A DNA stretch of 64,000 nucleotides from the NCBI RefSeq assembly GCF_009936045.1, contig NZ_QWEQ01000012.1, forward strand, positions 1-64,000. The letters run 5' to 3'. Below are positions 15,495-41,637 of the stretch, piece by piece. Numbering within the stretch: position 1 is the first letter of the stretch; each line of letters opens with the position of its first letter. The DNA is from Emergencia sp. 1XD21-10. GTDB taxonomy: Bacteria > Bacillota > Clostridia > Peptostreptococcales > Anaerovoracaceae. Made by a program: the position numbers and the translations under genes. The notes beneath the pieces are model-generated. The model made no database searches. It saw only the letters and a program-made list of their open reading frames with translations, and was not told the origin of the DNA.

Positions 15495-17072
15495 TTACGT
15501 AGTTTCCACGTTATGATATCTCCAGATGGCCAGTGCGGTATAGAAGTCATAGGCTGCAGGCATCAGGTTAAAACTGGTGTTGGTAAGCTGCCGTGCTTTA
15601 TTCAGACGGTAGGTTACAGCGTTTCTGTGAAGGTACAGCATCTGCGCAGCGGCATTCAGTTTTGAATCGCAGTCGATCATATAGATGGCCAGAGTTTTCA
15701 GAAGGTCGTCGCGATCATGACTCAGGGAATCTATGATACTGAAAAGATATTCTGTCCGTTTGTTGCTGGTTTCAGAGAGGGACATAACCTCCTGAGAAAG
15801 CATGATGTCGTGATTATCCCAGTTTCTCCGGTTCAGGAAGATTTTCTGCAGAGCCGGCTCGGTTTTCAGATAATCCCGGTAGGTTTGCTTCAGTGAAGCC
15901 ATATCCTTGTTTCCCCTGTCCATAAAAAAGGTGGCTTTCTCATCATATTTTTCTACAAAACAGTGAAGGTCGTCGTATAGAGCGTAGTCCAGGCTATCGG
16001 AGAGCATGAAAGAGGACAGAATCACCAGATGATTGTCAATCTGATCTGCAAGATAGAATTTGTGATATTCTTTAAAAAGACGACAGATCTCGCCCTGCAG
16101 CGGTTCCATGGATCCATTTCCCGAGGAAATGATAATCAGATTGGAAATGCGCTCGAAGCTGATATTGGAATTCCGAAGGTATTTTTTTGCCGCAGCTTCC
16201 TCGGTTTTAAAGATTAAAGACAGCAGAGCGTGCGGCGACTGAAGGTCTATAGAATATCCCCAGACAGAGGAGAAAAAACCGGTGCAGGCGCACATATCGC
16301 TGATGATTTTTTCGTTCAGTACGGTGTTGTGGCAGGAGGCATACAGAGTCATTCTGGTATCTTTGCCATTTGAAAAGTCCATTTTGTAAATATGAAATTC
16401 TGCGCCATCCTGTTCCACATCTTTTGAAGCATATCCTGAGGATGAGTCGCGAAAGAGATTACAGAAATAATCGGGGTCGTTCAGGGGATAGGATGGACGG
16501 TAGGATGCCTGGAAGTAGACCTGAGAGCTGCTGCTGAGAAGCAGATTGCATTTATAGTGATTGGACATGATACGCAGCAGGTTTTCCATGGTTCTCAGTT
16601 CTGTAGGCATCTGGGCAAGTCTTTTTTCCGTTGAACTGATAAAATCTTTTGAGAGGACCTGATCGCGAACGATTACTCCCATAACATCGGTTATAATATC
16701 GCTGTATTTAATCCGGTAACTGTCGTTTTTCAGTACGATCAGGGGAAAGCCCTGCTTATCCGCTGTCTGGATCAGCTTTTTGTCTACATAGGGTAAGATT
16801 TTTCCGATATAGAACAGGACCAGAGCAATTGAACCGGTATTGGACAGATCCTTGATAGCTTCACACTGCATTTTGACGTCGTTTTTGAAATTATAAAATG
16901 CTGACAGGACCAGTTCATTGGGAGTGAACACATCCAGATCATAACTTTCGTGTTCAAAAAATTCCAGTACAGAAACAGATGATACGATCCTGTCTAAGCC
17001 GGATGCACCGGCAATCACGGTGCCGAAACTCATGGACGGCAGAGCCAGACAGTCCTTCAGGGTAATGCTCAT
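15495..17072 (-). CDS. PucR-family transcriptional regulator (module A)
   Basis: A 525-residue regulator. The N-terminal PucR domain starts SITLKDCLALPSMSFGTVIAG, and a C-terminal PucR-type helix-turn-helix spans about 455-515 (KLNAAAQMLYLHRNAVTYRLNK). The middle ~300 residues are a poorly conserved sensor region. Known relatives control purine, allantoin and amino-acid catabolism in response to intermediates. It is divergent from the NCS1 permease at 17258, with palindromes in the gap, so it probably regulates that operon. A parallel regulator-permease pair occurs at 38683-41637. GGAGGA precedes the ATG. Confidence 0.88.
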   Translation of the reverse strand: MSITLKDCLALPSMSFGTVIAGASGLDRIVSSVSVLEFFEHESYDLDVFTPNELVLSAFYNFKNDVKMQCEAIKDLSNTGSIALVLFYIGKILPYVDKKLIQTADKQGFPLIVLKNDSYRIKYSDIITDVMGVIVRDQVLSKDFISSTEKRLAQMPTELRTMENLLRIMSNHYKCNLLLSSSSQVYFQASYRPSYPLNDPDYFCNLFRDSSSGYASKDVEQDGAEFHIYKMDFSNGKDTRMTLYASCHNTVLNEKIISDMCACTGFFSSVWGYSIDLQSPHALLSLIFKTEEAAAKKYLRNSNISFERISNLIIISSGNGSMEPLQGEICRLFKEYHKFYLADQIDNHLVILSSFMLSDSLDYALYDDLHCFVEKYDEKATFFMDRGNKDMASLKQTYRDYLKTEPALQKIFLNRRNWDNHDIMLSQEVMSLSETSNKRTEYLFSIIDSLSHDRDDLLKTLAIYMIDCDSKLNAAAQMLYLHRNAVTYRLNKARQLTNTSFNLMPAAYDFYTALAIWRYHNVETT

Positions 17073-17144
17073 AACGATTCCTCCTCAATTGGCTAACATG
17101 ATGATTTTTATTATAACAGAATTTTCATGGCATCACAATAAAAA

Positions 17145-17180
17145 TGTGCAGATGCACAAATGAAATGAGAGGTGTTTCAT
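17145..17180. promoter_or_regulatory. Palindromes between pucR and the NCS1 operon (candidate operators)
   Basis: TGTGCAGATGCACA (17145-17158) is a perfect 6-2-6 palindrome. ATGAAA (17160-17165) and TTTCAT (17175-17180) form a second inverted pair. They lie in the divergent gap, where the PucR regulator would be expected to bind. A possible -10 box for the permease operon, TATGAT, is at 17214-17219. Confidence 0.4.
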
Positions 17181-17257
17181 CAACTGCCTAAAGAAAAGGG
17201 CAGAATTTTGTGATATGATGTTTAAAAATTCAGAAAGGAAGTGTAAAAGCACGAAGA

Positions 17258-18538
17258 ATGATGAAAAAAGAACAGAAACAAGTAGAAGCCATGGCATTAA
17301 AGCCTATTGGCGAAGATGAACGAAAGGACTGGGTTTCCCTGGCGTTCGTACAGGCAGGTATCTGTGTCTGCGTACCGGCTTTCCTGCTTGGCGCTTTGCT
17401 TGCGGAAGCAATGCCTATATGGCCTGCGATTATTTCAGGATCTCTCGGGTATCTGGTCGTTGTTATCGGAATGGTAATCACCGGTATGATGGGCTGCGAT
17501 TTGGGCGCGGCATCCTGCACGGCCTGCGAAGCCGGCTTCGGAAGATCCGGAGCCAGATTTATCGTCAGCACTATTTTCGCGGTGAACATGATAGGATGGT
17601 TCGGCATACAGAACGGTGTCTGCGGAGAGGCGTTCAGCAATGCCATGTATGCCATGACGGGAATCGAAATTCCTGTGATCGTATCTAATACGGTCTGGGG
17701 CATCATCATGCTGCTGACCGCTGTATTCGGTGTCAGCGCTTTGGAAAAGCTGGACAAGATATCCATTCCTCTCCTGATGATCATTATGCTCTACGGAACT
17801 TTCCTGGCTTTCAGGACCTACGGCACCGGCGGACTGCATACAGCGACTGCCCAGACCATGAGCTTCATGGGAGGCGTGGCACTGTCCTTCAACTTTACAG
17901 CAGTAGGCACAATCACTGCTGCTGATTACACCAGATTTCAGAAGAGCAGGAAGGATACTGTAAAATCTGTATTCTACGGCGTATTTCCAATGGGTGTTGT
18001 AACGCTGGTCATGGGGATTCTGCTGACCAAAATGTCCGGGGAATACGATGTCAGCATGGTGCTGATCGATGTAGGGCTTCCTCTTCTCGGCATTACGGCG
18101 CTGGTTATCTCGACGTGGACCACTAATTCCACCAATGCCTACAGCGCAGGGCTCAATATCGTTATGGCTCTGAAGCTCAATGACAACAGGAGAAGAGAGG
18201 CAACGCTGATTTCCGGTATTATCGGCATTATTCTGTGCGATCTTGGCATTCTGGGACATATCGAGGGCGTACTGAGTCTGCTGTCTTATGTAGTGTGTCC
18301 GGTCGGCGGCGTCATTATTGCCGACTACTGGATTGTAGGAAGAGGAAAGAAGGAAAACTTCCGGCCGAAAGACGGCGTTAATCTGGCAGGTGTCATCGCA
18401 TGGGCGCTCAGCGCAGTTATCGCATACTTTATCGGTATTGAGTTTACCGGCATTCTGGTTGGCGCGGCTGCCTATCTGGTCTTAGAAAGACTGATCCCGT
18501 CTACTTCAAGAGATGGATCTGATCATACAGCAGTATAA
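17258..18538 (+). CDS. NCS1-family permease (cytosine/allantoin/hydantoin type), module A
   Basis: A 426-residue integral membrane protein of the nucleobase-cation-symport-1 family, normally with 12 membrane helices. CodB-like features include WVSLAFVQAGICVCVPAF near the N-terminus, AADYTRFQKSRKDT near 225, and STWTTNSTNAYSAGLN near 288. The family carries cytosine, uracil, allantoin, hydantoins or thiamin precursors with Na+ or H+. The setting, with DUF917 and M20 hydrolases, suggests a cyclic amide or ureide substrate. The start at 17258 or 17261 is uncertain because the nearest purine-rich site is about 18 bases upstream. It is close in sequence to the permease at 38683. Confidence 0.88.
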   Translation: MMKKEQKQVEAMALKPIGEDERKDWVSLAFVQAGICVCVPAFLLGALLAEAMPIWPAIISGSLGYLVVVIGMVITGMMGCDLGAASCTACEAGFGRSGARFIVSTIFAVNMIGWFGIQNGVCGEAFSNAMYAMTGIEIPVIVSNTVWGIIMLLTAVFGVSALEKLDKISIPLLMIIMLYGTFLAFRTYGTGGLHTATAQTMSFMGGVALSFNFTAVGTITAADYTRFQKSRKDTVKSVFYGVFPMGVVTLVMGILLTKMSGEYDVSMVLIDVGLPLLGITALVISTWTTNSTNAYSAGLNIVMALKLNDNRRREATLISGIIGIILCDLGILGHIEGVLSLLSYVVCPVGGVIIADYWIVGRGKKENFRPKDGVNLAGVIAWALSAVIAYFIGIEFTGILVGAAAYLVLERLIPSTSRDGSDHTAV

Positions 18539-18560
18539 AATTATAACGGAGGAAAATAAA

Positions 18561-19652
18561 ATGAGAGAGTTAAACAAACAGGACATGATCGATGTACTAT
18601 ACGGGTGTGCGGTACTGGGTACCGGCGGCGGAGGACCGCTGGAAGAGGGGCTGTCCCTGATGAAAAAACACTTTGATAAAGGCGAAACTTTGAAACTGAT
18701 CAAACTGGACGAACTGCCTGACGATGAATATGTTGTTACGCCGTATGGCTGCGGCGCGCCGTCTGCCGGCGGAAAAAATCCGAAATTTGCAGATCTGAGT
18801 CTTGCGGAGGAAGCGTCTTCTGTGCTGGCAGTGCAGGCTCTGGAAGGTTTTCTGGGCAAGAAAATTTATGCAGTAGGATCAACAGAATTAGGGGGCAGCA
18901 ATACAGCGGAAGCTCTTCATGCAGCTCTGGAAATGGGCGTACCTCTTCTGGATGCGGACCCGGCAGGAAGATCCGTACCTGAATTGCAGCATTCTACCTA
19001 TTACGTAAAAGATGTGCCAATTTATCCTATGGGTGTTGCCACCAAGTTCGGCGAGAAAATCGTGCTTCAGAATGTACAGGGTGACCTGAGAGCAGAGGAT
19101 ATCGTAAGAGCCATTGCTGTAGCCAGCGACAATATGGTCGGCGTTGCAGACCATGCCAATGTAGGCAGAGTCATCAAAGAAGCACTGATTCCGGATATGA
19201 TTACATACGCTCAGGAAATAGGCGTTACTTTGCGGGAAGCAAAAGAAAAGGGTCTGGATGTGGCAAAAGCTATTGCCGACGCAAAAGAAGGAAAACTGCT
19301 CTTCAAAGGCGTTGTAACGGAATTCCCTTGGGAGACCAGAGATGGTTTCAACTTTGGAGAAATTCATCTGAAGGGCGAAGCGGAATTTACTGGTGAGACC
19401 TATAAGATCTGGCTGAAAAACGAGAATATTATGGCATACAGAAACGGAGAAATCGATGTAATGGCTCCGGATCTGATCTGCATGATTGGAGAAAATGGCG
19501 ATCCGCTGACTACGCCGAACTTTGATCTGGGTCAGAGAATGACTGTCATTGCGCTGCCGTCACCGGAAATCTGGACGACACCGGAAGGACTTGCCTGCTT
19601 TGGACCTAAGCACTTTGGCTTTGATGTAGAGTATAAGCCGTTTGAAAGATAA
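18561..19652 (+). CDS. DUF917 family protein (hydantoinase-related), module A
   Basis: A 363-residue protein of the DUF917 (S-methyl-thiohydantoin-desulfurase-like) family. Conserved stretches are YGCAVLGTGGGGPLEEG near the N-terminus, TPYGCGAPS near 60, and STELGGSNTAEALH near 100. Characterised relatives act on thiohydantoin-type rings, and others are found with hydantoinases. A cytosolic hydrolase opening a five-membered ring compound is a fair guess, not proven. The ATG at 18561 is chosen because GGAGG lies eight bases before it; a longer frame from 18513 would overlap the permease. It is followed 11 bases later by the M20 gene. Confidence 0.8.
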   Translation: MRELNKQDMIDVLYGCAVLGTGGGGPLEEGLSLMKKHFDKGETLKLIKLDELPDDEYVVTPYGCGAPSAGGKNPKFADLSLAEEASSVLAVQALEGFLGKKIYAVGSTELGGSNTAEALHAALEMGVPLLDADPAGRSVPELQHSTYYVKDVPIYPMGVATKFGEKIVLQNVQGDLRAEDIVRAIAVASDNMVGVADHANVGRVIKEALIPDMITYAQEIGVTLREAKEKGLDVAKAIADAKEGKLLFKGVVTEFPWETRDGFNFGEIHLKGEAEFTGETYKIWLKNENIMAYRNGEIDVMAPDLICMIGENGDPLTTPNFDLGQRMTVIALPSPEIWTTPEGLACFGPKHFGFDVEYKPFER

Positions 19653-19663
19653 AGGAACATGGA

Positions 19664-20941
19664 ATGGACAGAATAATAGCTGATTTGCGAAAACTGGTAG
19701 AGATAAACAGTGTTTCAGCAAGGACAGAGCAAAAAGAGTGCCCTTTCGGCGAAGGGGTACGGAAAGTTCTGGATACCGCTCTGGACATCTGCGGTTCTTA
19801 TGGATTCAGGACAAAAAACTGTGACAATATGATAGGATATGCTGAGACCGGTCAGGGCGAGGAACTGATGGGAATCCTGGTTCATCTGGACGTGGTTCCC
19901 GCAGGCGACGGCTGGAACTATGAACCCTTTGCGCTGACTGTTGAAGACGGAAAACTCATAGGCCGCGGCGTTACGGATGACAAAGGACCGGCTGCAGCGG
20001 TGATTCATGCGATCAGGGAACTGCTTGAAGAAGGATGCGTGTTTAATAAGCGGATTCGTATTATATTCGGTATGACTGAGGAAGCAGGCGACTGGATCGA
20101 TATGGAATACTATAAACAGACAGAGGAAAAGATTGATTTCGGCTTTACGCCTGATGCGGATTTTCCGGCGATTTATGCTGAGATGGGTATTGCGAATGTT
20201 CGATTCACCTTTGATCGTACACGAACCTGCTTTGAGGATATCGAAGGAGGTAACGCGGTAAACATGGTCCCGGATATCTGCAGAGCCAGATTCCGCAGCG
20301 AGAGCGGGGAAATTCTTTCCATGACGGAGACAGGAAAGTCAGCTCACGGCAGTACGCCGCAGGACGGGGAAAATGCTATTTCCAAGCTGATGACCTGTTT
20401 TCAGACACGGGAGGACTGTCAGCTGAGCAGCTTTTTCCGGGACTGCATCAAAATGGAATACCATGGAGAAAGCTTGAACGGTTATGCCGCAGACAAAGAA
20501 AGCGGCGAGATTACATATAACTTCGGCATGATCCGTACAGACGGAGACACTATCAGCCTTACGGCGGATATCAGGTATCCGGTGACCTTCCGCATCGAGG
20601 ATATTCTGGAACAGATCAGGAAGCATATGACAAGCAGCGGCTATGGGGACGTAAAGATGGAACTCCTCTATAATGAGCCATATGTTTTTCTCGAAGAAGA
20701 CGGACCGGTGATAACCAAACTGCTGGAAGCCTATCGAGAGCATACCGGAGATATGGGACGCGCCACAGTAATCGGCGGCGGCACTTATGCCCGTGCTATG
20801 GAAAATATCGTTGCCTTTGGACCTATGCTTCCCGGCAGGGAGCTGACGGAACATCAGGCCAACGAGTATATGTTCATCGAGGATCTGAGACTGGCCAAAG
20901 ACATCTACAAAAGCGCCATCAGAAAACTGGCAGCAGAATAA
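19664..20941 (+). CDS. M20 metallopeptidase, PepV/Sapep-like dipeptidase (module A)
   Basis: A 425-residue zinc or manganese hydrolase. Metal ligands and catalytic residues are visible: H74-x-D76 in LVHLDVVPAG, aspartates in GRGVTDDKGP (101-109), E139-E140 in GMTEEAGDW, and TPDADFP (162-168). The W/PF motif after HLDVVPAG marks the PepV/Sapep group, which cleaves dipeptides. Related M20 enzymes remove N-carbamoyl or N-acyl groups. In this operon it follows a DUF917 protein, so it may process the ring-opened product. It is the last gene before a terminator. A paralogue lies at 36303. Confidence 0.88.
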   Translation: MDRIIADLRKLVEINSVSARTEQKECPFGEGVRKVLDTALDICGSYGFRTKNCDNMIGYAETGQGEELMGILVHLDVVPAGDGWNYEPFALTVEDGKLIGRGVTDDKGPAAAVIHAIRELLEEGCVFNKRIRIIFGMTEEAGDWIDMEYYKQTEEKIDFGFTPDADFPAIYAEMGIANVRFTFDRTRTCFEDIEGGNAVNMVPDICRARFRSESGEILSMTETGKSAHGSTPQDGENAISKLMTCFQTREDCQLSSFFRDCIKMEYHGESLNGYAADKESGEITYNFGMIRTDGDTISLTADIRYPVTFRIEDILEQIRKHMTSSGYGDVKMELLYNEPYVFLEEDGPVITKLLEAYREHTGDMGRATVIGGGTYARAMENIVAFGPMLPGRELTEHQANEYMFIEDLRLAKDIYKSAIRKLAAE

Positions 20942-21000
20942 ATAACAGTAATAAAAAGAGGCCCAATATAAAATGTTGGGTTGAAGTAAATAACTGGGTA

Positions 21001-21182: not shown

Positions 21183-21215
21183 ATAAACTGAAGTATCAGG
21201 AGGTAGCATAGCAAT

Positions 21216-22379
21216 ATGAAGCACAGATTTGTTGCAAAAAGATACTGGAAGGATCAGAGCACGGCCATGGGAAAATCCGATGAAATGGCTAAATCTTTCG
21301 ATGACTGTATTAACCTCAGTCTGGGAGATCCGGATCTGATTACGGACAGATTGATTATTGACAAATCCTATGAAGATGCCAGGATTGGTCATACCAAATA
21401 TACGGATTTCAGAGGTGACCCGGAGCTTCGGGAGGAAATCTGCAAATACTATAAAGAAGAGTACGATATGAATGTTGCAGATGAAGAAGTCTTTGTAACA
21501 GCCTCCGCATGCCTGGGCATGTATCTGGCACTGGAAGCTATCGTAGACGATGGCGATGAAGTAATCCTGCAGGCCCCATTCTTTACGCCGTATCCGCAGC
21601 AGGTGGAACTGGCAAGAGGCATTCCTGTGGAACTTCCCACCTACGAAGAAGAGGATTTTCAGATTAACATAGAGCGTCTGGAATCCCTGATTACAGAGCG
21701 GACGAAAGCGCTGGTCATCAACTCGCCGAGCAACCCGACGGGAAACTGCCTGACTGTGGAAACCATGGAGAAGATCGCTGAAATTGCCGTAAAATACGAT
21801 TTAGTCGTTATCTCAGACGACATCTATACCGCCTTCAGCTATCAGAATCCGTTTGTGCCATTTGCGACAATGCCGGGCATGAGAGAAAGAACCATCATTC
21901 TCAATTCTTTCTCCAAGAATTTCACCATGACCGGCTGGAGAGTGGGCAACATCATCGCGCCGGATTACATCATCAAAGTGATTCAGCAGATTAACGAAAA
22001 CGTGGTATTTACAGCGCCGTCAGTATCACAGAGGGCTGCGCTCCACGCCCTGCGTCACGGAGCAGAAATCCAGCCGCCGATGATAGAGGAATACAGAAAG
22101 AGAATGTTTTATGCGGCGGAGAGAATCAACCAGATTCCAAAGCTTTCTGTGATTTACCCACCAAAGGGCAGCTTCTACTTGTTTATGAATATCAAGGAAA
22201 CAGGATTAAACAGCGATCAGGCGGCGGAACTGATTTTGAGGGAGGCCCACGTGCTGATGCTGCCGGGAAACGCCTTTGGAGCCTGCGGAGAAGGCTACGT
22301 GCGTATCGCCTGCACCGTAAACGTGGATACCCTGAAAGAAGCCTTTGACCGTATTGAAAAGATTGCGTTGTTCCAGTAG
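21216..22379 (+). CDS. Class I/II aminotransferase
   Basis: A 387-residue PLP-dependent aminotransferase of fold type I, AspC-like. Landmarks are NSPSNPTGN near 169, SDDIYTAFSY near 204, and the PLP lysine K234 in NSFSKNFTMTGWRVG. It would swap an amino group between an amino acid and a 2-oxo acid in the cytosol; the substrate is not clear. It heads an operon with a YjiH-type membrane protein, acetamidase/formamidase and LarA homologue. A very similar paralogue with the same lysine position is at 54098. The ATG has an AGGAGG ribosome binding site. Confidence 0.9.
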   Translation: MKHRFVAKRYWKDQSTAMGKSDEMAKSFDDCINLSLGDPDLITDRLIIDKSYEDARIGHTKYTDFRGDPELREEICKYYKEEYDMNVADEEVFVTASACLGMYLALEAIVDDGDEVILQAPFFTPYPQQVELARGIPVELPTYEEEDFQINIERLESLITERTKALVINSPSNPTGNCLTVETMEKIAEIAVKYDLVVISDDIYTAFSYQNPFVPFATMPGMRERTIILNSFSKNFTMTGWRVGNIIAPDYIIKVIQQINENVVFTAPSVSQRAALHALRHGAEIQPPMIEEYRKRMFYAAERINQIPKLSVIYPPKGSFYLFMNIKETGLNSDQAAELILREAHVLMLPGNAFGACGEGYVRIACTVNVDTLKEAFDRIEKIALFQ

Positions 22380-22430: not shown

Positions 22431-23780
22431 ATGAATAATATGGATTTAACCGTTGATAAAAAAAGCTATCAAAAATTTGTTATATTTTCATTATTGGGCG
22501 TTTTACTATTTTTAACGCCAATTCCAAACAATGGATCCTTTACCGTATTGACAGCGATGCTTTCTGATTTTATCATAGCATCAACGGGAAATTTAATTGT
22601 ATGGTTTACCATGGCGTTACTGGTCGTATGTGCGATTTTACAGCCTGTTGCAAGTATCGCAAAACCTAAATGTATCGTAGAAAACAGGGTACTGAGCAGT
22701 CTGTTTGTGACTACGCCGCTGTACTATATCAGCAGCATTGTGGCTGCAGTGTTTATCGTGATGTGCTATTTTCATGTAGGACCGGAAGCCGTTATTTCCG
22801 ATGCCACCGGTCAGACGATTCTGGGAATCGCAAATCCACTGGTAGGCATTATTCTCGCCATCACGTATTTTATGCCGTTTCTGACGGAGTTCGGACTCAT
22901 GGAATATGTAGGCGTATTTCTGCGGAAAGTAACGAGGCCGCTGTTTAAACTGCCGGGAAAATCTGCCATCAATATCGTGACTTCCTGGCTTGGCGCGGCT
23001 AACATGGCAGTGGTTCTGACCAGAAGCCTTTACAATAAGGGACAGTACACGAAGAGAGAATCGGCAGTCATCATTACGGCTTTTTCCGCAGTAAATGTGC
23101 CGTTTTGTCTGGTTGTCGCGGAAACCTTAGATATTACACAGTACTTCCTGCAGTGCTATTTAGTGGTTTGCTTAGTAGGTGTTGTGCTGGCGATTATTAC
23201 GCCGAGAATTCCGCCCCTTACCAGAATTCCTAATGAATACGCGTCGGGCGTCACGCCGCAGTCCATGGAACTGGTACCGGAGGGTGTAAAGTCCCGCCTT
23301 TGGGCAAGAAAGATTGCTTCACAGCAAGCGGAGCGTTTTGAAATTCGCACGATTTTTAAATCCGGCACGGAAATGCTCTTTGGTGTTCTGATTGGTACTT
23401 TGCCTGTTATCTTTGCATGGGGTACGCTTACCTTGATTTTGGTAGAGTACACGCCGATTTTAGGCTGGATTTCTTATCCGTTTGGACTGTTATTTGACGT
23501 ACTGGGTGTAGAAGAAGCCTTTGCGGCAGCGCCGGCAGCGCTGGCCGGTTTTGCGGATATGTTTATTCCGGCAGTTTTAGGCATCAACATTCAGTCGATT
23601 GCAACCAGATGGATTATCGGAACCCTTTCTCTGGTACAGATTATATTTATGACTGAAGTTGGAATTCTGGCAATTCAGTCCAAGGTTGGACTCAATGTCG
23701 GTAATCTGTTCATTATTTTCCTGGAGAGAACCGTTATCGCAATTCCGCTGATTGTACTGGCGGCAAATATTGTATTTTAG
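22431..23780 (+). CDS. YjiH-family membrane protein with nucleoside-recognition (Gate) domain
   Basis: A 449-residue polytopic membrane protein resembling the YjiH/nucleoside-recognition (Gate) family, named after CNT nucleoside transporters. About ten hydrophobic segments are present. A typical Gate stretch is FLTEFGLMEYVGVFLRKVTR near 150, and a second repeat follows around 290. Its true substrate is unknown for the family; in this operon it may import or export the amino acid or hydroxy acid handled by its neighbours. GGAGGAAAG precedes the ATG, 51 bases after the aminotransferase gene. Confidence 0.75.
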   Translation: MNNMDLTVDKKSYQKFVIFSLLGVLLFLTPIPNNGSFTVLTAMLSDFIIASTGNLIVWFTMALLVVCAILQPVASIAKPKCIVENRVLSSLFVTTPLYYISSIVAAVFIVMCYFHVGPEAVISDATGQTILGIANPLVGIILAITYFMPFLTEFGLMEYVGVFLRKVTRPLFKLPGKSAINIVTSWLGAANMAVVLTRSLYNKGQYTKRESAVIITAFSAVNVPFCLVVAETLDITQYFLQCYLVVCLVGVVLAIITPRIPPLTRIPNEYASGVTPQSMELVPEGVKSRLWARKIASQQAERFEIRTIFKSGTEMLFGVLIGTLPVIFAWGTLTLILVEYTPILGWISYPFGLLFDVLGVEEAFAAAPAALAGFADMFIPAVLGINIQSIATRWIIGTLSLVQIIFMTEVGILAIQSKVGLNVGNLFIIFLERTVIAIPLIVLAANIVF

Positions 23781-23805
23781 CAGCATGATAGAAGGAGACG
23801 GATAT

Positions 23806-24690
23806 ATGAAATTGATAGAACAGTCGACACTGACTTTTTCACCGGACCATAAACCGGCGGGCACATGTAAGCCGGGTGAAATCGTAGCATTTCACTCTAT
23901 GGACGCTTTCAGCAATGTCCTTGTCAGCGAGAAGCAGATGGGTTCAGAAATTCCCCTGGAAGAGTCAAACCCTACGGCGGGACCGCTGTATGTAGAGGGC
24001 GCAATGCCGGGAGATGTTCTTGCCGTAAAAATTCTGGATATCGCCTTGGAGCCTCAGGGCGTCATCGTCACCTGTCCGGATTTTGGACCCCTTTGCGATG
24101 AGATAGAGGAACGGACAGCCTTCGTGAAGGCAGACCGCGGCAACGCCTATTTTAAAGGCGTGTCTTTTCCATTAAATCCTATGGTCGGCACCATCGGGAC
24201 AACCCCTGCGGATGGAGAAATTCCATGCTTTTGTACGGGAAAACATGGCGGCAACATGGACTGCAAGCAGGTAAAACCGGGCAGTACCATCTATCTGCCG
24301 GTCTTTACGGAAGGCGCGCTTCTGCAGATTGGAGATCTTCACGCAGCCATGGGAGACGGAGAACTTTGCGGAGCAGCCGTTGAATCGGCAGGCACGACAA
24401 CGGTAAAAGTAGATGTCATTAAAAATACCCACTTAGAGTGGCCGCTTCTTGAAACCGATGAAAAATGGTATGTCAATGCCTGCGGCAATAACTATTATGA
24501 GGCTCTGACAGAGGCATGCAGGGAAATGCGCAGACATCTGCAGAGAGTGACAGACTGGGATCAAACGGACATTTTTATGTATCTTTCCATGCAGGGAGAT
24601 GCCGAAGTCAATGCGTCCTACTGCAGCTCATCGGATATCCCTACGGCCGTCAGAGTCGGCATTCCAAAGGCGATGAATATCAGATTATAG
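23806..24690 (+). CDS. Acetamidase/formamidase family protein
   Basis: A 294-residue FmdA/AmdA-family amidohydrolase, which splits short amides such as formamide or acetamide into the acid and ammonia. Family features include GPLYVEGAMPGDVLAVKIL near 60, PCFCTGKHGGNMDCK near 140, LPVFTEGALLQIGDLHAAMGDGE near 165, and a Cys-rich C-terminus. The ATG at 23806 is chosen for the AGAAGGAGA ribosome binding site seven bases upstream; the longer frame from 23752 would overlap the YjiH gene. It sits between the YjiH and LarA genes, so the natural substrate may be an amino-acid-derived amide. Confidence 0.85.
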   Translation: MKLIEQSTLTFSPDHKPAGTCKPGEIVAFHSMDAFSNVLVSEKQMGSEIPLEESNPTAGPLYVEGAMPGDVLAVKILDIALEPQGVIVTCPDFGPLCDEIEERTAFVKADRGNAYFKGVSFPLNPMVGTIGTTPADGEIPCFCTGKHGGNMDCKQVKPGSTIYLPVFTEGALLQIGDLHAAMGDGELCGAAVESAGTTTVKVDVIKNTHLEWPLLETDEKWYVNACGNNYYEALTEACREMRRHLQRVTDWDQTDIFMYLSMQGDAEVNASYCSSSDIPTAVRVGIPKAMNIRL

Positions 24691-24702
24691 GAGGAAAGGA
24701 TT

Positions 24703-35268: not shown

Positions 35269-36213
35269 ATGGCAGAAAAAATTGTAATTGCCTTAGGAGG
35301 AAATGCGCTGCAGTCCGGAAAAAGCGAAGCGACTGCGGAAGCACAGCTTGCAGTGGTAAAGAAAACCTGCGAATATATCGCGGACATCAGCTGCAAAGGG
35401 TATGAAATCGGATTGGTACACGGAAACGGCCCACAGGTAGGCAGAATTCTTCTGGCTTCTGAAACCGCCAAAGACGTGACACCGTCAATGCCTTTTGATG
35501 TATGCGGCGCAATGTCTCAGGGCTACATCGGATATCACCTGCAGCAGGCGCTGAAATATGCCCTGAGCAAAAGAGGCAAGAACATTCCGGTTCTGACTGT
35601 AGCTACCCAGATGATTGTGGAAAAGAGCGACAAGGCGTTTCAGAATCCGACCAAACCGATTGGTCCGTTCTATCAGGAAGCGGAAGCCAAAGCACTGGAA
35701 GAAGAAAAGGGATACACCATGAAGGAAGACGCCGGAAGAGGCTTTAGACGGGTGGTGGCATCTCCCCTTCCGAGAAAGATTGTTGAAATCGACGCAGTTA
35801 AAAAACTGTGGGATTCGTCCATTGTGATTTCCTGCGGGGGCGGCGGCATTCCTGTAGTAGAAAACGCTGACGGTTCCATGGAAGGCGTTGCGGCAGTGAT
35901 CGATAAGGATTTTGCAGCAGAACTTCTGGCTGAACAGGTGGATGCGGATGTGCTGATGATTCTGACTGAGGTGGAAAAGGTTGCGATTAACTTCAACAAA
36001 CCGAATCAGAAGAATCTGGACAATCTGAACCTGGAAGAAGCGGTGAAGTACATCGAGGAAGGACAGTTCGCGCCGGGCAGCATGCTGCCGAAGGTAGAAG
36101 CGGCGATGAAGTTTGTCAGAGCAAATCCAAACAAAAAAGCCATTATCACGTCTTTAGATAAAGCCATCGAAGCATTAGAAGGAAAAACCGGAACAGCTAT
36201 CTCCTTTGCATAA
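35269..36213 (+). CDS. arcC: Carbamate kinase
   Basis: A 314-residue carbamate kinase of normal length. It makes ATP from carbamoyl phosphate and ADP, releasing CO2 and ammonia. Motifs include IVIALGGNALQSGKSEA near the N-terminus, VHGNGPQVGR near 47, VVASPLPRKIVE near 160 and SCGGGGIPV near 186. It is the ATP-yielding step expected with the deiminase and carbamoyltransferase encoded at 45-48 kb, but it sits 10 kb away, next to module B. There it could equally take carbamoyl groups from ureide breakdown. AAGGAGAAAG precedes the ATG. Confidence 0.94.
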   Translation: MAEKIVIALGGNALQSGKSEATAEAQLAVVKKTCEYIADISCKGYEIGLVHGNGPQVGRILLASETAKDVTPSMPFDVCGAMSQGYIGYHLQQALKYALSKRGKNIPVLTVATQMIVEKSDKAFQNPTKPIGPFYQEAEAKALEEEKGYTMKEDAGRGFRRVVASPLPRKIVEIDAVKKLWDSSIVISCGGGGIPVVENADGSMEGVAAVIDKDFAAELLAEQVDADVLMILTEVEKVAINFNKPNQKNLDNLNLEEAVKYIEEGQFAPGSMLPKVEAAMKFVRANPNKKAIITSLDKAIEALEGKTGTAISFA

Positions 36214-36230
36214 AGATTTGTATAGTATTG

Positions 36231-36270
36231 AAAAAGCCCCACGCTTGATATAAGTCACGTGGGGTTTTTT
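36231..36270. terminator. Bidirectional terminator after arcC
   Basis: AAAAAGCCCCACG (36231-36243) pairs with CGTGGGGTTTTTT (36258-36270). It separates the convergent arcC and M20 genes. Confidence 0.85.
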
Positions 36271-36302
36271 CGTTGGACTGTTTATAGGAGTTTCAAACTA
36301 GT

Positions 36303-37562
36303 TTATAGTTTCAGAAGCTTTTCAAAGGCCAGTCTGTAGATGCGGCGAGCTGTTGTAAGATCTTCAATGGCAACACATTCGCCGTTGCCGTGCTCTGTAA
36401 TAGGTCTGGCGGGAAGCAGCGGGCCGAAAGCAGCAATGTTTTCCATGGCTCTTGCGTAAGTTCCGCCGCCGATAGCAATAGGCGCTCCCTGAAAATCACC
36501 GGTAATGGTTCGGTAAGCGGACAAAAGCTGTGTCAGCACAGGATTGTCTTTTTTCAGCAGAACCGGCTGATTTTCAAAGAGAAGTTCAGCCTTTGCGCCA
36601 TACGGTGCGATTTGCCCGGTGATACCATCCATGACCTGACAGGAAAGGATAGAAGCAGGACAGCGGATGTCCAGATCGATGATAATGTCTGTTTCATCGC
36701 TGGAGATGACGCCTGCACTGCATGTGAGAGGACCGGTGTCCTCATCTGAAAAATTGCAGCCCAGGTTTTCACCGAAAACAGTAAAACCGATTTTATCCAT
36801 GTAAAATGAGGCAAAGGCGTCGGACTTTTGAATTTTAGAGAGCATATCCGCGATAGCGTTTTTTCCCTCTTCAGGGATGCTGCCGTGAACTGAGACTCCT
36901 TCGCCGTAAACCTTTTGACCGTTGGAAAGGGTCAGCTGCGCCGTATCGGGCACTGCGTTAATGGCGATGCCGCCTTCAATCTGTATAATTTTTGTGGCAG
37001 ATTTCGGATAACGCAGCCGTACTTCCAGAATGCGTTTTTCGGCATAAATTACAGGAAAATCCGCATCCGGTGTGAATCCGCAGTCAGGGATATCCTCATG
37101 CGCTTTGTAATACGCGATATCTTCCCAGCTGCCGGATTCCTCCTGACAGCCGAAGATAATGAGGATTCGCTTATTCAGTTTGACGCCTGTATCCAGCAAA
37201 TCTTTCATGGCGTAAATCGCAGCGATTGCAGGTCCCTTATCGTCAATGACGCCGCGTCCGTACAGTTTCCCATCTTTGACTACGGCGGAAAAGGGAGTGG
37301 TTTCCCAGCCGCTCCCTGGTGGAACAACGTCCAGATGAACGAGGATTCCGATGAGAGAATCCCCTTCTCCGATCTGTGCCCAGCCGATTCTGTTATCGCG
37401 GTTTTTCGTTTCAAAACCCAATGTATCGCAGAGCTTGAGTACATACTGCAGCGCGGAGAATACAGGCTTTCCGTAAGGAAGAAAGCCGTAATCCGGATCC
37501 TGCACCGGCGCTGCTCCTGTAATACTGGGTATTTCAACTAATTCCAATAAACTTTTCAGCAT
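36303..37562 (-). CDS. M20 metallopeptidase, PepV/Sapep-like dipeptidase (module B)
   Basis: A 419-residue paralogue of the hydrolase at 19664, with the same metal and catalytic motifs: GILVHLDVVPPG near 71-82, YGRGVIDDKGPA near 100, FGCQEESGSWEDI near 136 and TPDADFPVIYAE near 162. The C-terminal IGGGTYARAMENIAAFGPLLPAR is shared almost word for word. Like its partner it should cleave a dipeptide, N-carbamoyl or N-acyl amino acid in the cytosol. It lies downstream of DUF917 and NCS1 genes on the same strand. GGAAAGGAG precedes the ATG. Confidence 0.87.
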   Translation of the reverse strand: MLKSLLELVEIPSITGAAPVQDPDYGFLPYGKPVFSALQYVLKLCDTLGFETKNRDNRIGWAQIGEGDSLIGILVHLDVVPPGSGWETTPFSAVVKDGKLYGRGVIDDKGPAIAAIYAMKDLLDTGVKLNKRILIIFGCQEESGSWEDIAYYKAHEDIPDCGFTPDADFPVIYAEKRILEVRLRYPKSATKIIQIEGGIAINAVPDTAQLTLSNGQKVYGEGVSVHGSIPEEGKNAIADMLSKIQKSDAFASFYMDKIGFTVFGENLGCNFSDEDTGPLTCSAGVISSDETDIIIDLDIRCPASILSCQVMDGITGQIAPYGAKAELLFENQPVLLKKDNPVLTQLLSAYRTITGDFQGAPIAIGGGTYARAMENIAAFGPLLPARPITEHGNGECVAIEDLTTARRIYRLAFEKLLKL

Positions 37563-37583
37563 GGAGACAAACTCCTTTCCCGT

Positions 37584-38678
37584 TTATTTAAATGGCTTAT
37601 AATCGAAATCGAAGTTGAAGCTTCTCGGACCGAAGACTTCAAGCCCCTTTGGCGTCTTCCAGATTTCCGGCGCAGGAAGGGCGAATACGGTAACCTCCAT
37701 ATCCTTGACCCAGTTAGGGTTCGTAACAGGCTCTCCATTTTTATCCACCATGCAGATCAGGTCAGGGACGCTGACGTCGACAGCCTCATTTCTGTATGAC
37801 ACGATATTTTCGTTTTTAATCCAGATGCGATAGGTTTCACCCTGGAAGCTTCCAATTCCGTTGATATGGATGTTGCCGAAGTTGAATCCGTCCCGGCTCT
37901 CCCAAGGCGTTTCCCCGATTGTGCCTTTGAAAAGTATTTTTCCATCGAAGCTGTCTGCAAGAGCGGCAGCCACATCTCCGCCCGCGGATTTGGTTTCGCG
38001 CAGTGTTTTGCCGATATTCATAGCATAGGTAAGCGCATCAGGAATGACGCTTTTCTTGTAGACTTCACAGCGCATCGGATGGTCTACGCCGCCCAGCTCG
38101 TTGCCGCTTGCCACGACGACCGCTCTGACGATGTCTTCGGCACGGAAATCATCGATGACGTTTTTGATGATCATGGTTTCGCCGAAATTTGTCGCCAGTG
38201 CAAGAGGATAAATTGGAAGGTCGTGTACGTAGTAAGTGGTGTGCTGCAGATCCGGTACAGATCTCCCGGTAGGGTCGCTGTCTACGATAGGAAGACCAAG
38301 CTGACAGGCGATGTGCAGCGCTTCGGCAGTGTTTTCGCCGCCTAGCTCCGTAGAGGAAACGGCGCAGCATTTTTCACCCAGGTATTCTTCCAGCGTTCTG
38401 AAAGCCAGTACAGCCGGAGAATCATCGAGTCTTGGAAGTCTGTCAAATTTCGGGTCCAGACCTTCACCTTCCTTAATCGGCGCGCCGCAGCCATAAGGGG
38501 TCGCGATCATGCCGTCGTCAGGCAGCTCATCCAGCGAAATCATGTTTAGCTCTTTTCCTTCGGCAAAATCCTTTTCCAGCATTTCCAGTCCGCGAAGAAG
38601 GCTTCCGCCACCGCCAGTACCGAGAATGGTGCAGCCGTATATCATATCGAATACTTCCTGTTTTGTTAATGTTTTCAT
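37584..38678 (-). CDS. DUF917 family protein (hydantoinase-related), module B
   Basis: A 364-residue paralogue of the DUF917 protein at 18561. Shared motifs are YGCTILGTGGGGSLLRGLE, ATPYGCGAP and STELGGENTAEALH, with SDPTGRSVPDLQHTTYYV after them. Function is as uncertain as for the other copy; ring hydrolysis of a hydantoin- or ureide-like compound is suggested by family and neighbours. It lies four bases after the permease gene and 21 bases before the M20 gene, so all three are one operon. AAAGGAG precedes the ATG at 38678. Confidence 0.8.
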   Translation of the reverse strand: MKTLTKQEVFDMIYGCTILGTGGGGSLLRGLEMLEKDFAEGKELNMISLDELPDDGMIATPYGCGAPIKEGEGLDPKFDRLPRLDDSPAVLAFRTLEEYLGEKCCAVSSTELGGENTAEALHIACQLGLPIVDSDPTGRSVPDLQHTTYYVHDLPIYPLALATNFGETMIIKNVIDDFRAEDIVRAVVVASGNELGGVDHPMRCEVYKKSVIPDALTYAMNIGKTLRETKSAGGDVAAALADSFDGKILFKGTIGETPWESRDGFNFGNIHINGIGSFQGETYRIWIKNENIVSYRNEAVDVSVPDLICMVDKNGEPVTNPNWVKDMEVTVFALPAPEIWKTPKGLEVFGPRSFNFDFDYKPFK

Positions 38679-38682
38679 GTTT

Positions 38683-39951
38683 TTACTCCTTTTCTACTTT
38701 TTGTTTATCCCTCGCCAGTGCCGGTATGTATCGTTCGATGACGATAAAGATGACTGCCGCGAACAGAATTGACGAAAAATCAATTTTAATGATGTACGAC
38801 AGGACGGCTGATACCGCCCAGGCAATGATGGCTGAGATGCAGAATCCGTCTCTGGAACGCCAGTTTTCTGACTTTCCTTTTCCAAGAATAAAATAATCTG
38901 CCAGCATGATGCCGCCAATCGGGCAAACAAGATAGGCAAGAAAACCTATGAAAGTGGACAGATTATCGACAATGCCGGTAACTCCCAGCAGTGTGCCCAC
39001 AAAGCCTACTGCCAGTGTAACCTCGCGCCGTCTGTTGTCGGGAACATTAAACGTTTTTACTGCGTTGAGCGCGCCGGTGTAGGCGTTGGTTGAGTTAGTT
39101 GTCCAGGTGGAAAGAATCAGGGAAATGACGCCCAGCAGCGGAATGCCAACTTTAATCAAGACCATGCTGATATCATATTCGTTCGCGATTTTGGTCAGCA
39201 TAGCGCCGATGACAAGGGTGATGATGGTTAACGGGAATACGCCGATGGTAACGGATAAGACTGTATCCTTTCTTGATTTTTGAAATCTGGTGAAATCGGA
39301 ACTGGTAATAATGCCGACCGCAAAGAAATCAAAAGATAAAATGACGCCTTCCATAAATGTCATCGTCGGTTCAATGGGTGTGTTTACAGTTTGCAAACCG
39401 TTGAGGTTGACAGCCATGGCTGTGCCGACAATCATGACAATCAGAAGCACCGGGATAGACACATAGTCCAGCTTTTCTACCGCTTTGATGCCGAAGACGG
39501 CGGTAACGGTCATGACGATGCCCCAGAGAATACAGGATGCGGTATAGGGGAAATGAATTCCGTAGCATTCGCTCATGAAGTTGGTAAAAGACATGGCGCA
39601 CTCCCCGTTGTTGATACCGAACCAGCCGATTAGGTTAATCATAAAGATAGTACTGGCGATGTACCTGGAACCTTTTTTGCCAAAAGTGGATTCTGTAATG
39701 GTACAGGTTGCCAGTCCGAGATCACAGCCGATAAAACCGATGATAATCATTGCCGCTACAACGAGGACGGCACCCGCGGTACCTGCCCAGATTGCCGGCC
39801 CAAAATTCATTTCTTCGACGAGGAGCGCGCCCATGAGAAATGCGGGTACACAGACACAGATACCGGCCTGCACAAGGGCAAGGGAAACCCAGCTTTCTCT
39901 TTGATCTTTGGAAATAGGCGCAAGTGCGTTTACTTCTTTGTTGTTACTCAT
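38683..39951 (-). CDS. NCS1-family permease (cytosine/allantoin/hydantoin type), module B
   Basis: A 422-residue paralogue of the permease at 17258, with WVSLALVQAGICVCVPAFLMG, SSDFTRFQKSRKDT and STWTTNSTNAYTGALN. Twelve membrane helices are expected. The start at 39951 (MSNNKEVN) is preferred over 40026 because GGAGG lies eight bases before it. It is divergent from the PucR gene at 40132 and followed by DUF917 and M20, exactly as in module A but on the other strand. The differing helix residues between the two permeases could reflect different substrates. Confidence 0.88.
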   Translation of the reverse strand: MSNNKEVNALAPISKDQRESWVSLALVQAGICVCVPAFLMGALLVEEMNFGPAIWAGTAGAVLVVAAMIIIGFIGCDLGLATCTITESTFGKKGSRYIASTIFMINLIGWFGINNGECAMSFTNFMSECYGIHFPYTASCILWGIVMTVTAVFGIKAVEKLDYVSIPVLLIVMIVGTAMAVNLNGLQTVNTPIEPTMTFMEGVILSFDFFAVGIITSSDFTRFQKSRKDTVLSVTIGVFPLTIITLVIGAMLTKIANEYDISMVLIKVGIPLLGVISLILSTWTTNSTNAYTGALNAVKTFNVPDNRRREVTLAVGFVGTLLGVTGIVDNLSTFIGFLAYLVCPIGGIMLADYFILGKGKSENWRSRDGFCISAIIAWAVSAVLSYIIKIDFSSILFAAVIFIVIERYIPALARDKQKVEKE

Positions 39952-40042
39952 AAATAACCTCCTTTCAGGTTGCCTTTTTCGACATTTTAGCAAAAGGAGG
40001 AATTTTCTGAAATGTAAATATGCCAAAGATTATACGAATTTT

Positions 40043-40058
40043 TTGGGCAATTGCTCAA
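40043..40058. promoter_or_regulatory. Near-perfect palindrome in the module B divergent gap (candidate operator)
   Basis: TTGGGCAATTGCTCAA is a 16-base palindrome with one mispair. It lies between the divergent NCS1 and PucR genes. A TATAAT box (40080-40085) lies just downstream toward pucR. Binding by the adjacent PucR is inferred from position only. Confidence 0.4.
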
Positions 40059-40131
40059 TCCGGATAGATAGCCAGAAGATATAATATAAGGATAAGCAGA
40101 AAGTGTACAGGAAAGTCAACAGGAGAGTGAG

Positions 40132-41637
40132 ATGTATTTAACAGTCAGAGAATGCCTTACATTGCCTTCTCTTCGACTCGGAAAGGTGGCGGCGGGAGAG
40201 AAGGGGCTTGACGCCATCGTTAATACGGTGTCCGTATTAGAATTCGATGATAGAAATGATGAGATTTTTGTACCTAATGATTTGTGTATTACAGCATTTT
40301 ACAGTGTGCGAAAGGATGTAGAGGCGCAGTGTAGGCTTCTGAAAAGATTTAAGCGAATGGGTTGTGCCGGCGTGATACTTTTTTACACGGATGTAATTTT
40401 ACAGAGGATAGATCAGAAGGTAATTGAGGTTGGGAATCAGCTGAATCTTCCAATCATCGTGTTGCCTGGCGGGGATATGGGACTGAAGTACAGTGATGTT
40501 ATTACAGATGTGATGAATGCGGTCTTTCTGAAAAGGACAAATCAGCAGTTCTTCGCGGAACAGATGATGCAGAGGATTGCGGCTCTTTCAGCAGAACATA
40601 GAAATATCGAATGTGTTTTGAGCTTGCTCAGTGATTACGCGAGAGCGGCGTTCATTCTATGCGATGGGAAGCTGGGCGTGATTGCATCCTCCTTTTGGCC
40701 GCAGGGAAATGTGTTTCCGCTTAATCAGATCATCGCGGAGTATTGCATGAGAAAGGATAAACTGTCTTTTCAGGGAAGCAGGGGAATTTATTATCGGCAG
40801 AGTTTTACGGGAAATAATGGAAATGAGTTGATTTTGTTGGCAGTCAGTCAATATGATTCATTGTCAATACAGGTTTTGAGCGACGCAATTTCGGTGATTC
40901 GGCTTTTTTCCGCAACCTGGAATTACAATCTGGATACCTATAGTCGGGAGTTTCTGATTCCCGCTGTGCTGAAAGGGGATAGGAGGCTGGCTGCCCAGAT
41001 TGCGGAAAAACAAAGGCTTGCTTTGGAAAAATACCGAACGGTACTATTTATAACGCATTCAGATAGAACTGCGCTGTCTCTTTTGCGGAAAAAGTTTGAG
41101 TCTTTTGACCAGGATGTGATTATCGATGTACTCGGAGAGCATACAGTTTCCTTTTTTACGGTGGAGGAAGAATACTTGCTGGAATACTTTTCCTGTGAGG
41201 ATATTCTGTCTGCAGAGTCTGGGGCGGCGATTTTTTCTGTATCGCTGTATGATGATATTCGGGCTGAGTATGAATTGTTTTGCAATTATTTTGCCTGTGC
41301 GGAAAAGATTTATCCACAGGAAAAGCTTTTGAACGCAGAGCAGCTTGCCTTCGCAAAACGCGCGGCAGATATGCAGTATACGGAAGCAGGATCACATTAT
41401 TTGCGCTTGATTTCGCCGGTTCTGGACAGTCCAGAGGAAAATCTGGTGCTGACGCTTTCAGTACATTTGCTCGATGCAGGCGGACAGATTAAAAAAACGG
41501 CAGAACTGCTTCATACTCACAGAAATACCGTTTTATATCGTTTGAATAAAATGAAAAAGTTGCTTGGAAAGGACTTTGAGACGATGCCTTTCTTGTTTGA
41601 AATCTATCAGGCAGCGGCGCTGCTGCGGCTTTCGTAA
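40132..41637 (+). CDS. PucR-family transcriptional regulator (module B)
   Basis: A 501-residue regulator with the same layout as the one at 15495. The N-terminal PucR domain reads YLTVRECLTLPSLRLGKVAAG, and the C-terminal helix-turn-helix lies at about 450-490 (KKTAELLHTHRNTVLYRLNK). The N-terminal 150 residues align closely with the other copy, while the central sensor region diverges, so each may respond to its own inducer. It is divergent from the module B operon and ends in an imperfect hairpin (41661-41703). Confidence 0.88.
   Translation: MYLTVRECLTLPSLRLGKVAAGEKGLDAIVNTVSVLEFDDRNDEIFVPNDLCITAFYSVRKDVEAQCRLLKRFKRMGCAGVILFYTDVILQRIDQKVIEVGNQLNLPIIVLPGGDMGLKYSDVITDVMNAVFLKRTNQQFFAEQMMQRIAALSAEHRNIECVLSLLSDYARAAFILCDGKLGVIASSFWPQGNVFPLNQIIAEYCMRKDKLSFQGSRGIYYRQSFTGNNGNELILLAVSQYDSLSIQVLSDAISVIRLFSATWNYNLDTYSREFLIPAVLKGDRRLAAQIAEKQRLALEKYRTVLFITHSDRTALSLLRKKFESFDQDVIIDVLGEHTVSFFTVEEEYLLEYFSCEDILSAESGAAIFSVSLYDDIRAEYELFCNYFACAEKIYPQEKLLNAEQLAFAKRAADMQYTEAGSHYLRLISPVLDSPEENLVLTLSVHLLDAGGQIKKTAELLHTHRNTVLYRLNKMKKLLGKDFETMPFLFEIYQAAALLRLS

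Follow-up and report, generated by a model that had tools for sequence, protein, structure and literature searches.

Twin PucR/NCS1/DUF917/M20 modules in an Emergencia genome and their possible role in the use of cyclic dipeptides

A stretch of 64,000 nucleotides from Emergencia sp. 1XD21-10 (contig NZ_QWEQ01000012.1; the whole stretch is hereafter called the window) carries two mirror-image modules, each composed of a PucR-family regulator divergent from a three-gene operon for an NCS1 permease, a DUF917 protein and an M20 peptidase. It is proposed here, with a confidence just short of even, that these modules are inducible units which take up and hydrolyse cyclic dipeptides or closely related compounds, each module acting on one member of the class. 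Four lines of evidence from related DUF917 loci point to dipeptide-like products, namely the variety of dipeptidases encoded nearby, the lack of HyuC-type carbamoylases, the presence of peptide-type ABC and OPT transporters and the occurrence of cyclodipeptide-oxidase (CDO) genes.

In the proposed pathway, PucR would read an inducer through its variable middle region and, acting at a palindrome of the TTGTGC-N4-GCACAA type, would switch on the three-gene operon. The NCS1 carrier would import a small cyclic amide, whose ring would be attacked by the DUF917 enzyme to give a linear dipeptide or a dipeptide-like N-acyl amino acid, its alpha-carboxylate being free. Cleavage of this product by the Sapep/PepV-type M20 enzyme would then supply amino acids that can be fermented. 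The substrates would most likely be 2,5-diketopiperazines or compounds closely related to them, a different member of the class for each module.

The four protein families of the modules

All eight genes are open reading frames (ORFs) with Pfam matches above the gathering scores, which bears out the arrangement at 15495-20941 and 36303-41637 described in an earlier note on this DNA. The genes and two candidate operators are as follows.

15495-17072, minus strand: PucR-family regulator of module 1, 525 amino acids (PF07905 E 2e-23, HTH_30 E 6e-13)
17144-17159, plus strand: candidate operator of module 1, ATGTGC-AGAT-GCACAA, within the divergent promoter, 11/12 positions of TTGTGC-N4-GCACAA
17258-18538, plus strand: NCS1 permease of module 1, 426 amino acids (PF02133 E 2e-32)
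18561-19652, plus strand: DUF917/S-Me-THD-like enzyme of module 1, 363 amino acids (PF20906 E 6e-57, PF06032 E 7e-41)
19664-20941, plus strand: M20 Sapep/PepV-type dipeptidase of module 1, short lid, 425 amino acids (TIGR01887 417 bits)
36303-37562, minus strand: M20 Sapep/PepV-type dipeptidase of module 2, short lid, 419 amino acids (TIGR01887 360 bits)
37584-38678, minus strand: DUF917/S-Me-THD-like enzyme of module 2, 364 amino acids (PF20906 E 2e-57, PF06032 E 6e-40)
38683-39951, minus strand: NCS1 permease of module 2 (PF02133 E 3e-24)
40043-40058, plus strand: weaker candidate operator of module 2, TTGGGC-AATT-GCTCAA, within the divergent promoter, 10/12 positions
40132-41637, plus strand: PucR-family regulator of module 2, 501 amino acids (PF07905 E 7e-22, HTH_30 E 9e-14)

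The gene starts were set by ribosome sites. The aligned start of the module 1 DUF917 gene lies behind a GGAGG site at 18561 (18513 in the ORF list), and the TTG start listed for the module 2 NCS1 gene at 40026 is probably too far upstream, because an ATG is found behind AAAGGAGG at 39951. The resulting intergenic gaps are 22 and 11 bases in module 1 and 4 and 21 bases in module 2. All four pairs are paralogous, as had been claimed, with protein identities of 53% (NCS1), 57% (DUF917), 45% (M20) and 26% (PucR), each at E <=2e-63. The remark that the sensor domains had diverged also holds: identity within the PucR pair falls from 42% in the N-domain and 33% in the helix-turn-helix (HTH) region to 18% in the middle region.

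DUF917 is now named S-Me-THD (PF06032 and PF20906), and both domains are found above the gathering score and nearly at full length in both copies. Against the thiohydantoin desulfurase models NF058532/NF058529, the window proteins score 91.6/74.9 and 79.0/74.4 bits, compared with equivalog cut-offs of 450 and 440 bits. Hence they are members of the fold family but distinct from the two named desulfurases, and the function of an ergothioneine/thiohydantoin desulfurase proper was ruled out. A literature search under the name thiohydantoin desulfurase found no paper on that enzyme, in part judged by title among the papers listed. The AlphaFold2 model of the module 1 protein has a predicted local distance difference test (pLDDT) score of 92.6 and a predicted template modelling (pTM) score of 0.92; its only clear relative in the PDB is 2o3i, an uncharacterised structural-genomics entry, so that no mechanism can be read from the fold.

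Across the five DUF917 groups compared, R137, R183 and N287 never vary, and E109 and E288 hardly do. All 38 M20-linked or ABC-linked sequences also have D197 and H198; H198 is found in none of the three remaining groups, and D197 in 3 of the 21 members of the HyuA group. Position 198 is a histidine in all 38 of the former, a tyrosine in 17 of the 21 HyuA-clade proteins, a tryptophan in the 18 hand-picked members of the M29/PepD group and an asparagine in 18/18 proteins of the DUF1177 clade. Because this residue varies by clade, the substrates of DUF917 proteins probably vary from clade to clade too.

The M20 enzymes both match the Sapep family of Mn-dependent dipeptidases, TIGR01887, at 417 and 360 bits for a subfamily cut-off of 207.95, while the narrower PepV equivalog NF005591 is approached and not reached (415 and 361 bits versus 435). 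The HyuC/AllC carbamoylase model TIGR01879 falls outside the best 25 of the 46 and 45 NCBIfam families matched, the best in each case being a dipeptidase model. By these profile scores, the window enzymes belong to the Sapep/PepV dipeptidase subfamily and not to the HyuC/AllC carbamoylase subfamily. The residues H74, D76, D105, E139, E140, D164, N200, H228, R304 and H397 are kept in 21/21 proteins compared; from the PepV and Sapep structures, we take them to be metal, catalytic and carboxylate-site positions. The active-site residues are thus common to the window enzymes and the Sapep/PepV dipeptidases (3khx, 1lfw).

The lid segment is 24-28 residues long in 12 module M20 proteins (28 in module 1 and 24 in module 2) versus 48-57 in six other PepV-like enzymes of the same genome. 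A 21-row tree had suggested that the short-lid form is exclusive to DUF917 modules. This idea was abandoned, since 8 of 9 additional relatives from stretches without DUF917 have a short lid of 23-29 residues. In the resulting 30-row tree, the module enzymes no longer form one clade and two changes are seen, with which a single origin is still compatible. Fetched loci, labelled L here as genomes are labelled G, include eight with a short-lid PepV-type M20 gene and no DUF917 on the fetched stretch (L140-L145, L147 and L148), some beside genes that look MFS- or YfcC-like and, in L147, beside NCS1. These proteins point to a wider short-lid subfamily. Another stretch, L130 (G000:C104:86000-102000, where G000 is the window's genome, 3.39 Mb in 116 contigs), has a PepV-type M20 gene adjoining NCS1, together with M29-like and PucR genes and without DUF917.

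The NCS1 proteins match PF02133 at 113 and 86 bits for a gathering score of 23.5. Among solved structures, the relatives of the module 1 carrier are the cytosine permease 7qoa (E 5e-30) and Mhp1, 2jln (E 4e-7). The equivalogs for cytosine permease (PRK11017; 153.7 and 168.3 bits for a cut-off of 326) and allantoin permease (PRK11375; 33 and 29.6 bits for 620) do not recognize the window proteins, nor does either protein attain the ncs1 cut-off.

Recurrence of the gene set and clues to its substrate

The earlier note had named linkage of the four families in other genomes as a point on which its reading could fail, and the set does recur in further Clostridia. The order PucR/NCS1/DUF917/M20 is found in L021, L025, L026, L027, L030, L054 and L061, and the same order with one or two racemase-type genes added in L007, L031 and L057. 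L007 is a third occurrence of the set in the window's own genome; its racemase-family gene (assigned by Pfam), like those of L031 and L057 (assigned by a home profile), lies between DUF917 and M20. The sets of L022 and L028 are interrupted by a contig end, and in L023, L024 and L029, PucR, NCS1 and DUF917 are present with no M20 found on the fetched stretch. In L024 (4929-8000), PucR and NCS1 are each split into two matching ORFs, reflecting either broken genes or a sequencing error. Four loci of the M20-linked clade (L107, L109, L110 and L111, the last of which stops with its contig) have a tandem DUF917 pair behind NCS1 and no M20; such pairs are perhaps a two-subunit or two-substrate form.

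The PF06032 domain is present in 31 of 119 genomes sampled from the window's family (E 1e-3), with 27 above the cut-off, in 27 of 391 genomes of the class sample (E 1e-15) and in 9 of 13 genus genomes. Genomes hold up to nine DUF917 genes; the nine of E. timonensis are spread over seven loci, and three of the six in G000 have a PepV-type M20 gene nearby. Since G000 has nine full PepV-like genes, the estimated chance of finding one within 8 kb of a random gene is about 4%, compared with 3/6 for its DUF917 genes.

The collection of 121 DUF917 genes was reduced to 116 by the removal of 5 duplicates, and 37 of these were dropped for short flanks, leaving 79 genes at 73 loci with full flanks (4.5 kb or more to either side; the window was treated as full). 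Neighbours were counted out to 8 kb, and the counts are not independent because many rows are closely related. PucR is found near 54 of these 79 genes, NCS1 near 48, and PucR, NCS1 and a PepV-type M20 together near 12. This recurrent linkage fits the earlier suggestion of one pathway with two related substrates, in which import, ring attack and amino acid release would be the successive steps.

Dipeptidases of more than one kind accompany DUF917. A PepV-type (13) or PepD-type (6) gene lies near 19/79, a number that rises to 45/79 if M29-like genes are included; 19 is the safe count because the M29-like proteins matched PF02073 in part and no NCBIfam model (two scanned in each case). The PepD genes (TIGR01893) belong to other DUF917 clades, and those of L119, L066 and L059, the three that were scanned, are above the cut-off; L117, L120, L090 and L103 were assigned by profile. 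HyuC-type carbamoylases, the enzymes that would be expected to act once a hydantoin is opened, were in contrast found near 0/79 genes in a profile search, the profile being built from a single protein and recovering the HyuC of L129, a separate cluster of G000. Such genes are present in 10/13 genus genomes; G503, G508 and G511 have DUF917 and no HyuC match, while G502, G505, G506 and G507 have HyuC and no DUF917 match. The classical hydantoin cluster consists of a hydantoinase and a carbamoylase in one operon, and neither module contains such a gene. Together, the 0/79 and 19/79 counts weaken the hydantoin guess.

Transporters provide a further clue. A sister clade of the M20-linked DUF917s (10 rows) has ABC-transporter operons instead of NCS1, according to gene order and lengths. 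A generic ABC-ATPase profile was discarded with its counts because it matches any ABC ATPase, and an SBP5 profile, together with the Pfam oligo_HPY family on single operons, was used instead. The SBP5 profile matches in 6/6 full-flank members of the clade. In the 3 of 10 operons scanned with Pfam (L032, L082 and L084), the ATPases carry oligo_HPY, and the binding protein of L084 is SBP_bac_5. In the DUF1177 clade, OPT transporters are found near 9 of 15 full-flank DUF917 genes. Yet another clade (L081:10058-11977 and L089:12727-14646) has a different kind of ABC transporter and a 639-residue protein that by its look resembles aldehyde:ferredoxin oxidoreductase.

Both CDO parts are encoded at three DUF917 loci. 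L033 has a fused CDO (AlbA E 7e-23, AlbB E 8.5e-4, PF19585 E 8e-14) and its DUF917 falls just outside the clade formed by the M20-linked and ABC-linked proteins. In L053, which comes from the window's family and also has PucR and NCS1, and in L095, which has the same order, CDOA and CDOB overlap (PF19585 E 1e-13 and 2e-14). A piece of an IS1595-type transposase (PF12762) is found in L053 (3478-6473) between NCS1 and CDOA/CDOB of its PucR-DUF917-NCS1 operon.

Several observations weigh against diketopiperazines as substrates of the modules, in addition to the limits given above for the HyuC and M29-like counts. The search found no assay for any DUF917 protein of the window's clade, and the names of both NCBIfam members, taken as model names only, suggest that C2 of a five-membered ring is attacked while the ring stays closed. 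To our knowledge, NCS1 carriers are established for nucleobases and hydantoins, and none for diketopiperazines. The M20 link is itself incomplete: 9 of 20 full-flank DUF917 genes of the M20 clade have no M20 nearby (L023, L024, L029 and three tandem pairs), so that the dipeptidase may come from elsewhere, and two of the 11 with M20 (L055 and L056) have a long-lid enzyme apart from the operon. Conversely, short-lid M20 genes also occur on stretches without DUF917. The family of the ABC binding proteins serves nickel and glutathione systems as well, and the binding protein of L076 (the same locus as L032) best matched, among others, the GsiB, NikA and DppA models, all below cut-off. The CDO evidence consists of three loci, with no systematic count of CDOB. 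The modules have no CDO genes, and a search of G000 gave no CDOB (PF19585), although the controls were equally silent. Finally, a separate DUF917 clade pairs with HyuA, an ATP-dependent hydantoinase/lactamase-type subunit, CN_hydrolase genes are found near 5/79, and a strong AllB-type match lies close to one DUF917 gene (L069).

A hydantoin or ureide pathway, in which NCS1 imports the compound, DUF917 opens or converts its ring and M20 frees the amino acid from an N-carbamoyl intermediate, is considered unlikely. In its favour are the named DUF917 models, which act on thiohydantoins, the clade linked to HyuA, the hydantoin-racemase-family genes of some clusters, and the CN_hydrolase neighbours, that family including D-carbamoylases. 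The racemase genes between DUF917 and M20 are, however, also counted in favour of the cyclic-dipeptide reading. The NCS1 proteins also match Mhp1, whose ring-site residues W117, Q121 and N318 align with W114, Q118 (N in copy 2) and N293; these residues, which count for the cyclic-dipeptide reading as well, weigh little, because they are widespread among 67 aligned NCS1 proteins. The HyuA clade, the desulfurase names, the CN_hydrolase and AllB matches and the range of NCS1 leave hydantoin-like substrates possible, at least in other clades. For the modules themselves, however, the M20 enzyme is of the dipeptidase subfamily and HyuC is not found near DUF917 despite its frequency in the genus. Moreover, G000 has its own cluster of this kind without DUF917, L129 (G000:C82:32000-48000), which combines an AllB-type gene (above the TIGR03178 cut-off), a HyuC-type gene, NCS1, a racemase-like gene (home profile) and a nitroreductase, and is perhaps the true allantoin or hydantoin pathway of the genome. 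The carbamate kinase at 35269-36213 (AA_kinase) was set aside as support for hydantoins, since it can be explained by the genes at 45456-47749, presumably arginine deiminase and ornithine carbamoyltransferase of the arginine-deiminase pathway. The earlier note had offered a hydantoin, a ureide or a cyclic dipeptide; the last is favoured by the wider evidence, while the first two can no longer be held the likelier, given the M20 subfamily, the HyuC count and the separate L129 cluster.

Another peptide-derived ring or amide, such as an imidazolone, a lactam, a cyclic imide or a creatinine-like compound, from which DUF917 would produce a dipeptidase substrate without being a diketopiperazine hydrolase, is about equally unlikely. 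The change of DUF917 partners from clade to clade (HyuA, a creatininase-family gene, DUF1177/AroM, other ABC transporters) and of the residue at position 198 would be in keeping with it, whereas taken alone it leaves the peptide-type transporters and CDO genes of nearby clades unexplained. Use of purine or pyrimidine bases, brought to mind by the family names PucR (PF07905) and Transp_cyt_pur (PF02133) and by the cytosine permease 7qoa as nearest solved carrier, appears very improbable, as the NCS1 proteins stay below the cytosine, allantoin and ncs1 cut-offs, the operons contain no purine-pathway enzyme and a dipeptidase would have no evident role there. The cyclic-dipeptide reading is preferred. 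An extension of it is put forward as tentative: the DUF917s of the window's clade would be diketopiperazine hydrolases, and the PucR/NCS1/DUF917/dipeptidase modules would be dedicated operons with which gut Clostridia feed on cyclic dipeptides, the multiple copies serving a range of side chains.

Candidate operators and origin of the two copies

The candidate operator of module 1 is the only site in the window with at most one mismatch to TTGTGC-N4-GCACAA and one of six such places in the genome, versus one for the reversed control. In two tests, a site as good appeared in 0/500 and 1/200 shuffles of the promoter. The same figures were obtained for the weaker candidate of module 2, sites of this weakness being at chance level over the whole window. 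At least 10 of 12 positions agree in 22/26 divergent promoters of the M20 clade or near it (20/24 distinct ones, as L106 equals L021 and L058 equals L026), with the reservation that the pattern was derived from the same promoters on which it was scored and that 2-3 mismatches are at chance level window-wide. A de novo search recovered exact TGTGC-N4-GCACA arms in 7/18 module promoters (the 19th, L022, gave no sequence). The palindrome is absent from the promoters of L007, L031, L057 and L060, and it is not confined to the M20 clade, since the M29-type promoters of L115, L116 and L118 score 11/12. PucR may bind the palindrome.

At the DNA level, the two modules share two long matches of 62.5% and 63.2% identity and one 68-base match of 78%. 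The DUF917 copies fall in different subclades of a quick tree supported by the Shimodaira-Hasegawa-like approximate likelihood ratio test (SH-aLRT) only. The collection made for the tree took in 34 of the 35 DUF917 places found in 13 genus genomes, and one genus gene, L126, was too short for the tree itself. Copy 1 has 91-97% protein identity to a copy in G503, a sister species, where the locus L021 lies at a matching place beside AT1, the Gate permease, GntR, EtfBA and GlcD, with local rearrangement. For the DUF917 of copy 2, none of the 35 genus places is a close relative; the highest identity within the tree set, 60%, is with L054 from another genus, and the protein clusters with L055/L056 from a further genus of the family (SH-aLRT 95, same quick tree). 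In E. timonensis (L157), the flanking order NhaC-PHP-PucR3-OCD-AT-ADI-OTC-HSDH is kept with one aminotransferase added, and both the carbamate kinase and module 2 are missing. Copy 2 was therefore either gained in the window's genome or lost in E. timonensis. A recent local inverted duplication was ruled out by the DNA identities of the long matches, the different subclades and the E. timonensis site without copy 2.

Elsewhere in E. timonensis (NZ_FLKM01000008, ~1.614-1.633 Mb), two different DUF917 modules, L031 and L118, lie within ~19 kb upstream of a PucR3-OCD-ADI block; module 2 of the window sits beside the equivalent block. This region is perhaps a hot spot for DUF917 modules. Directly behind module 1, the window contains an aminotransferase gene (21216-22379) that by eye is very similar to a second one ~33 kb away (54032-55255). 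At 23752-25950, a short acetamidase/formamidase (PF03069) and, immediately after it, a LarA-like protein (PF09861) are encoded behind the Gate-domain permease.

Implications and relation to known systems

The modules probably represent an old and widespread kind of nutrient pathway for small ring-shaped protein fragments. Cyclic dipeptides occur widely in food that has been fermented or heated, and they have signalling roles. If the proposal is correct, it would provide the large and mostly uncharacterised DUF917 family with a reaction to test, and a nutrient could be predicted for E. timonensis, Dorea phocaeensis and other such gut species. A microbial sink would also exist for cyclic dipeptides, both signalling-active and food-borne. 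DUF917-linked oxidase clusters would then be catabolic, not biosynthetic.

The literature searched yielded hardly any bacterial genes for enzymes that open cyclic dipeptides, and few papers on DUF917. PMC6061476 goes no further than to suggest that some of the proteins annotated as oxoprolinases may hydrolyse cyclic dipeptides. The statement that no described pathway has exactly this gene set likewise agrees with that search, which found none, although near-relatives are in print. In E. limosum, PMC9503626 places PucR next to DUF917. CDO clusters without a cyclodipeptide synthase (CDPS) are reported in PMC11055893 to be enriched nearby in DUF917, a PF01177 racemase, AroM, dipeptide ABC/OPT transporters and peptidases; there, DUF917 was taken as a putative hydantoinase and purine metabolism or new secondary metabolites were proposed. 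These neighbourhoods are read here as catabolic, because many hold importers and dipeptidases. The families reported there are also found in DUF917 clades related to the window's, whereas the modules themselves lack oxidase genes and rely on NCS1 together with a PepV-type M20. The L129 cluster, in turn, has NCS1 and an M20-superfamily amidase in common with the modules and differs in its AllB-type and HyuC-type genes and its lack of DUF917.

A close published likeness is the set of permease, DUF917 and hydantoinase genes given for C. difficile (CDR20291_1615-1617) in PMC12915319, and for L. rhamnosus in PMC7513527, where adjacency is deduced from consecutive accessions. In the HyuA clade of the present collection, NCS1 is near 8 of 12 full-flank DUF917 genes and PucR near 4 of 12. 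Permease and DUF917 are common to these sets and the window, while HyuA stands in place of M20 and its DUF917 falls in a separate clade. The module is thus a variant of a known but little-characterised gene set, in which a dipeptidase takes the place of the hydantoinase.

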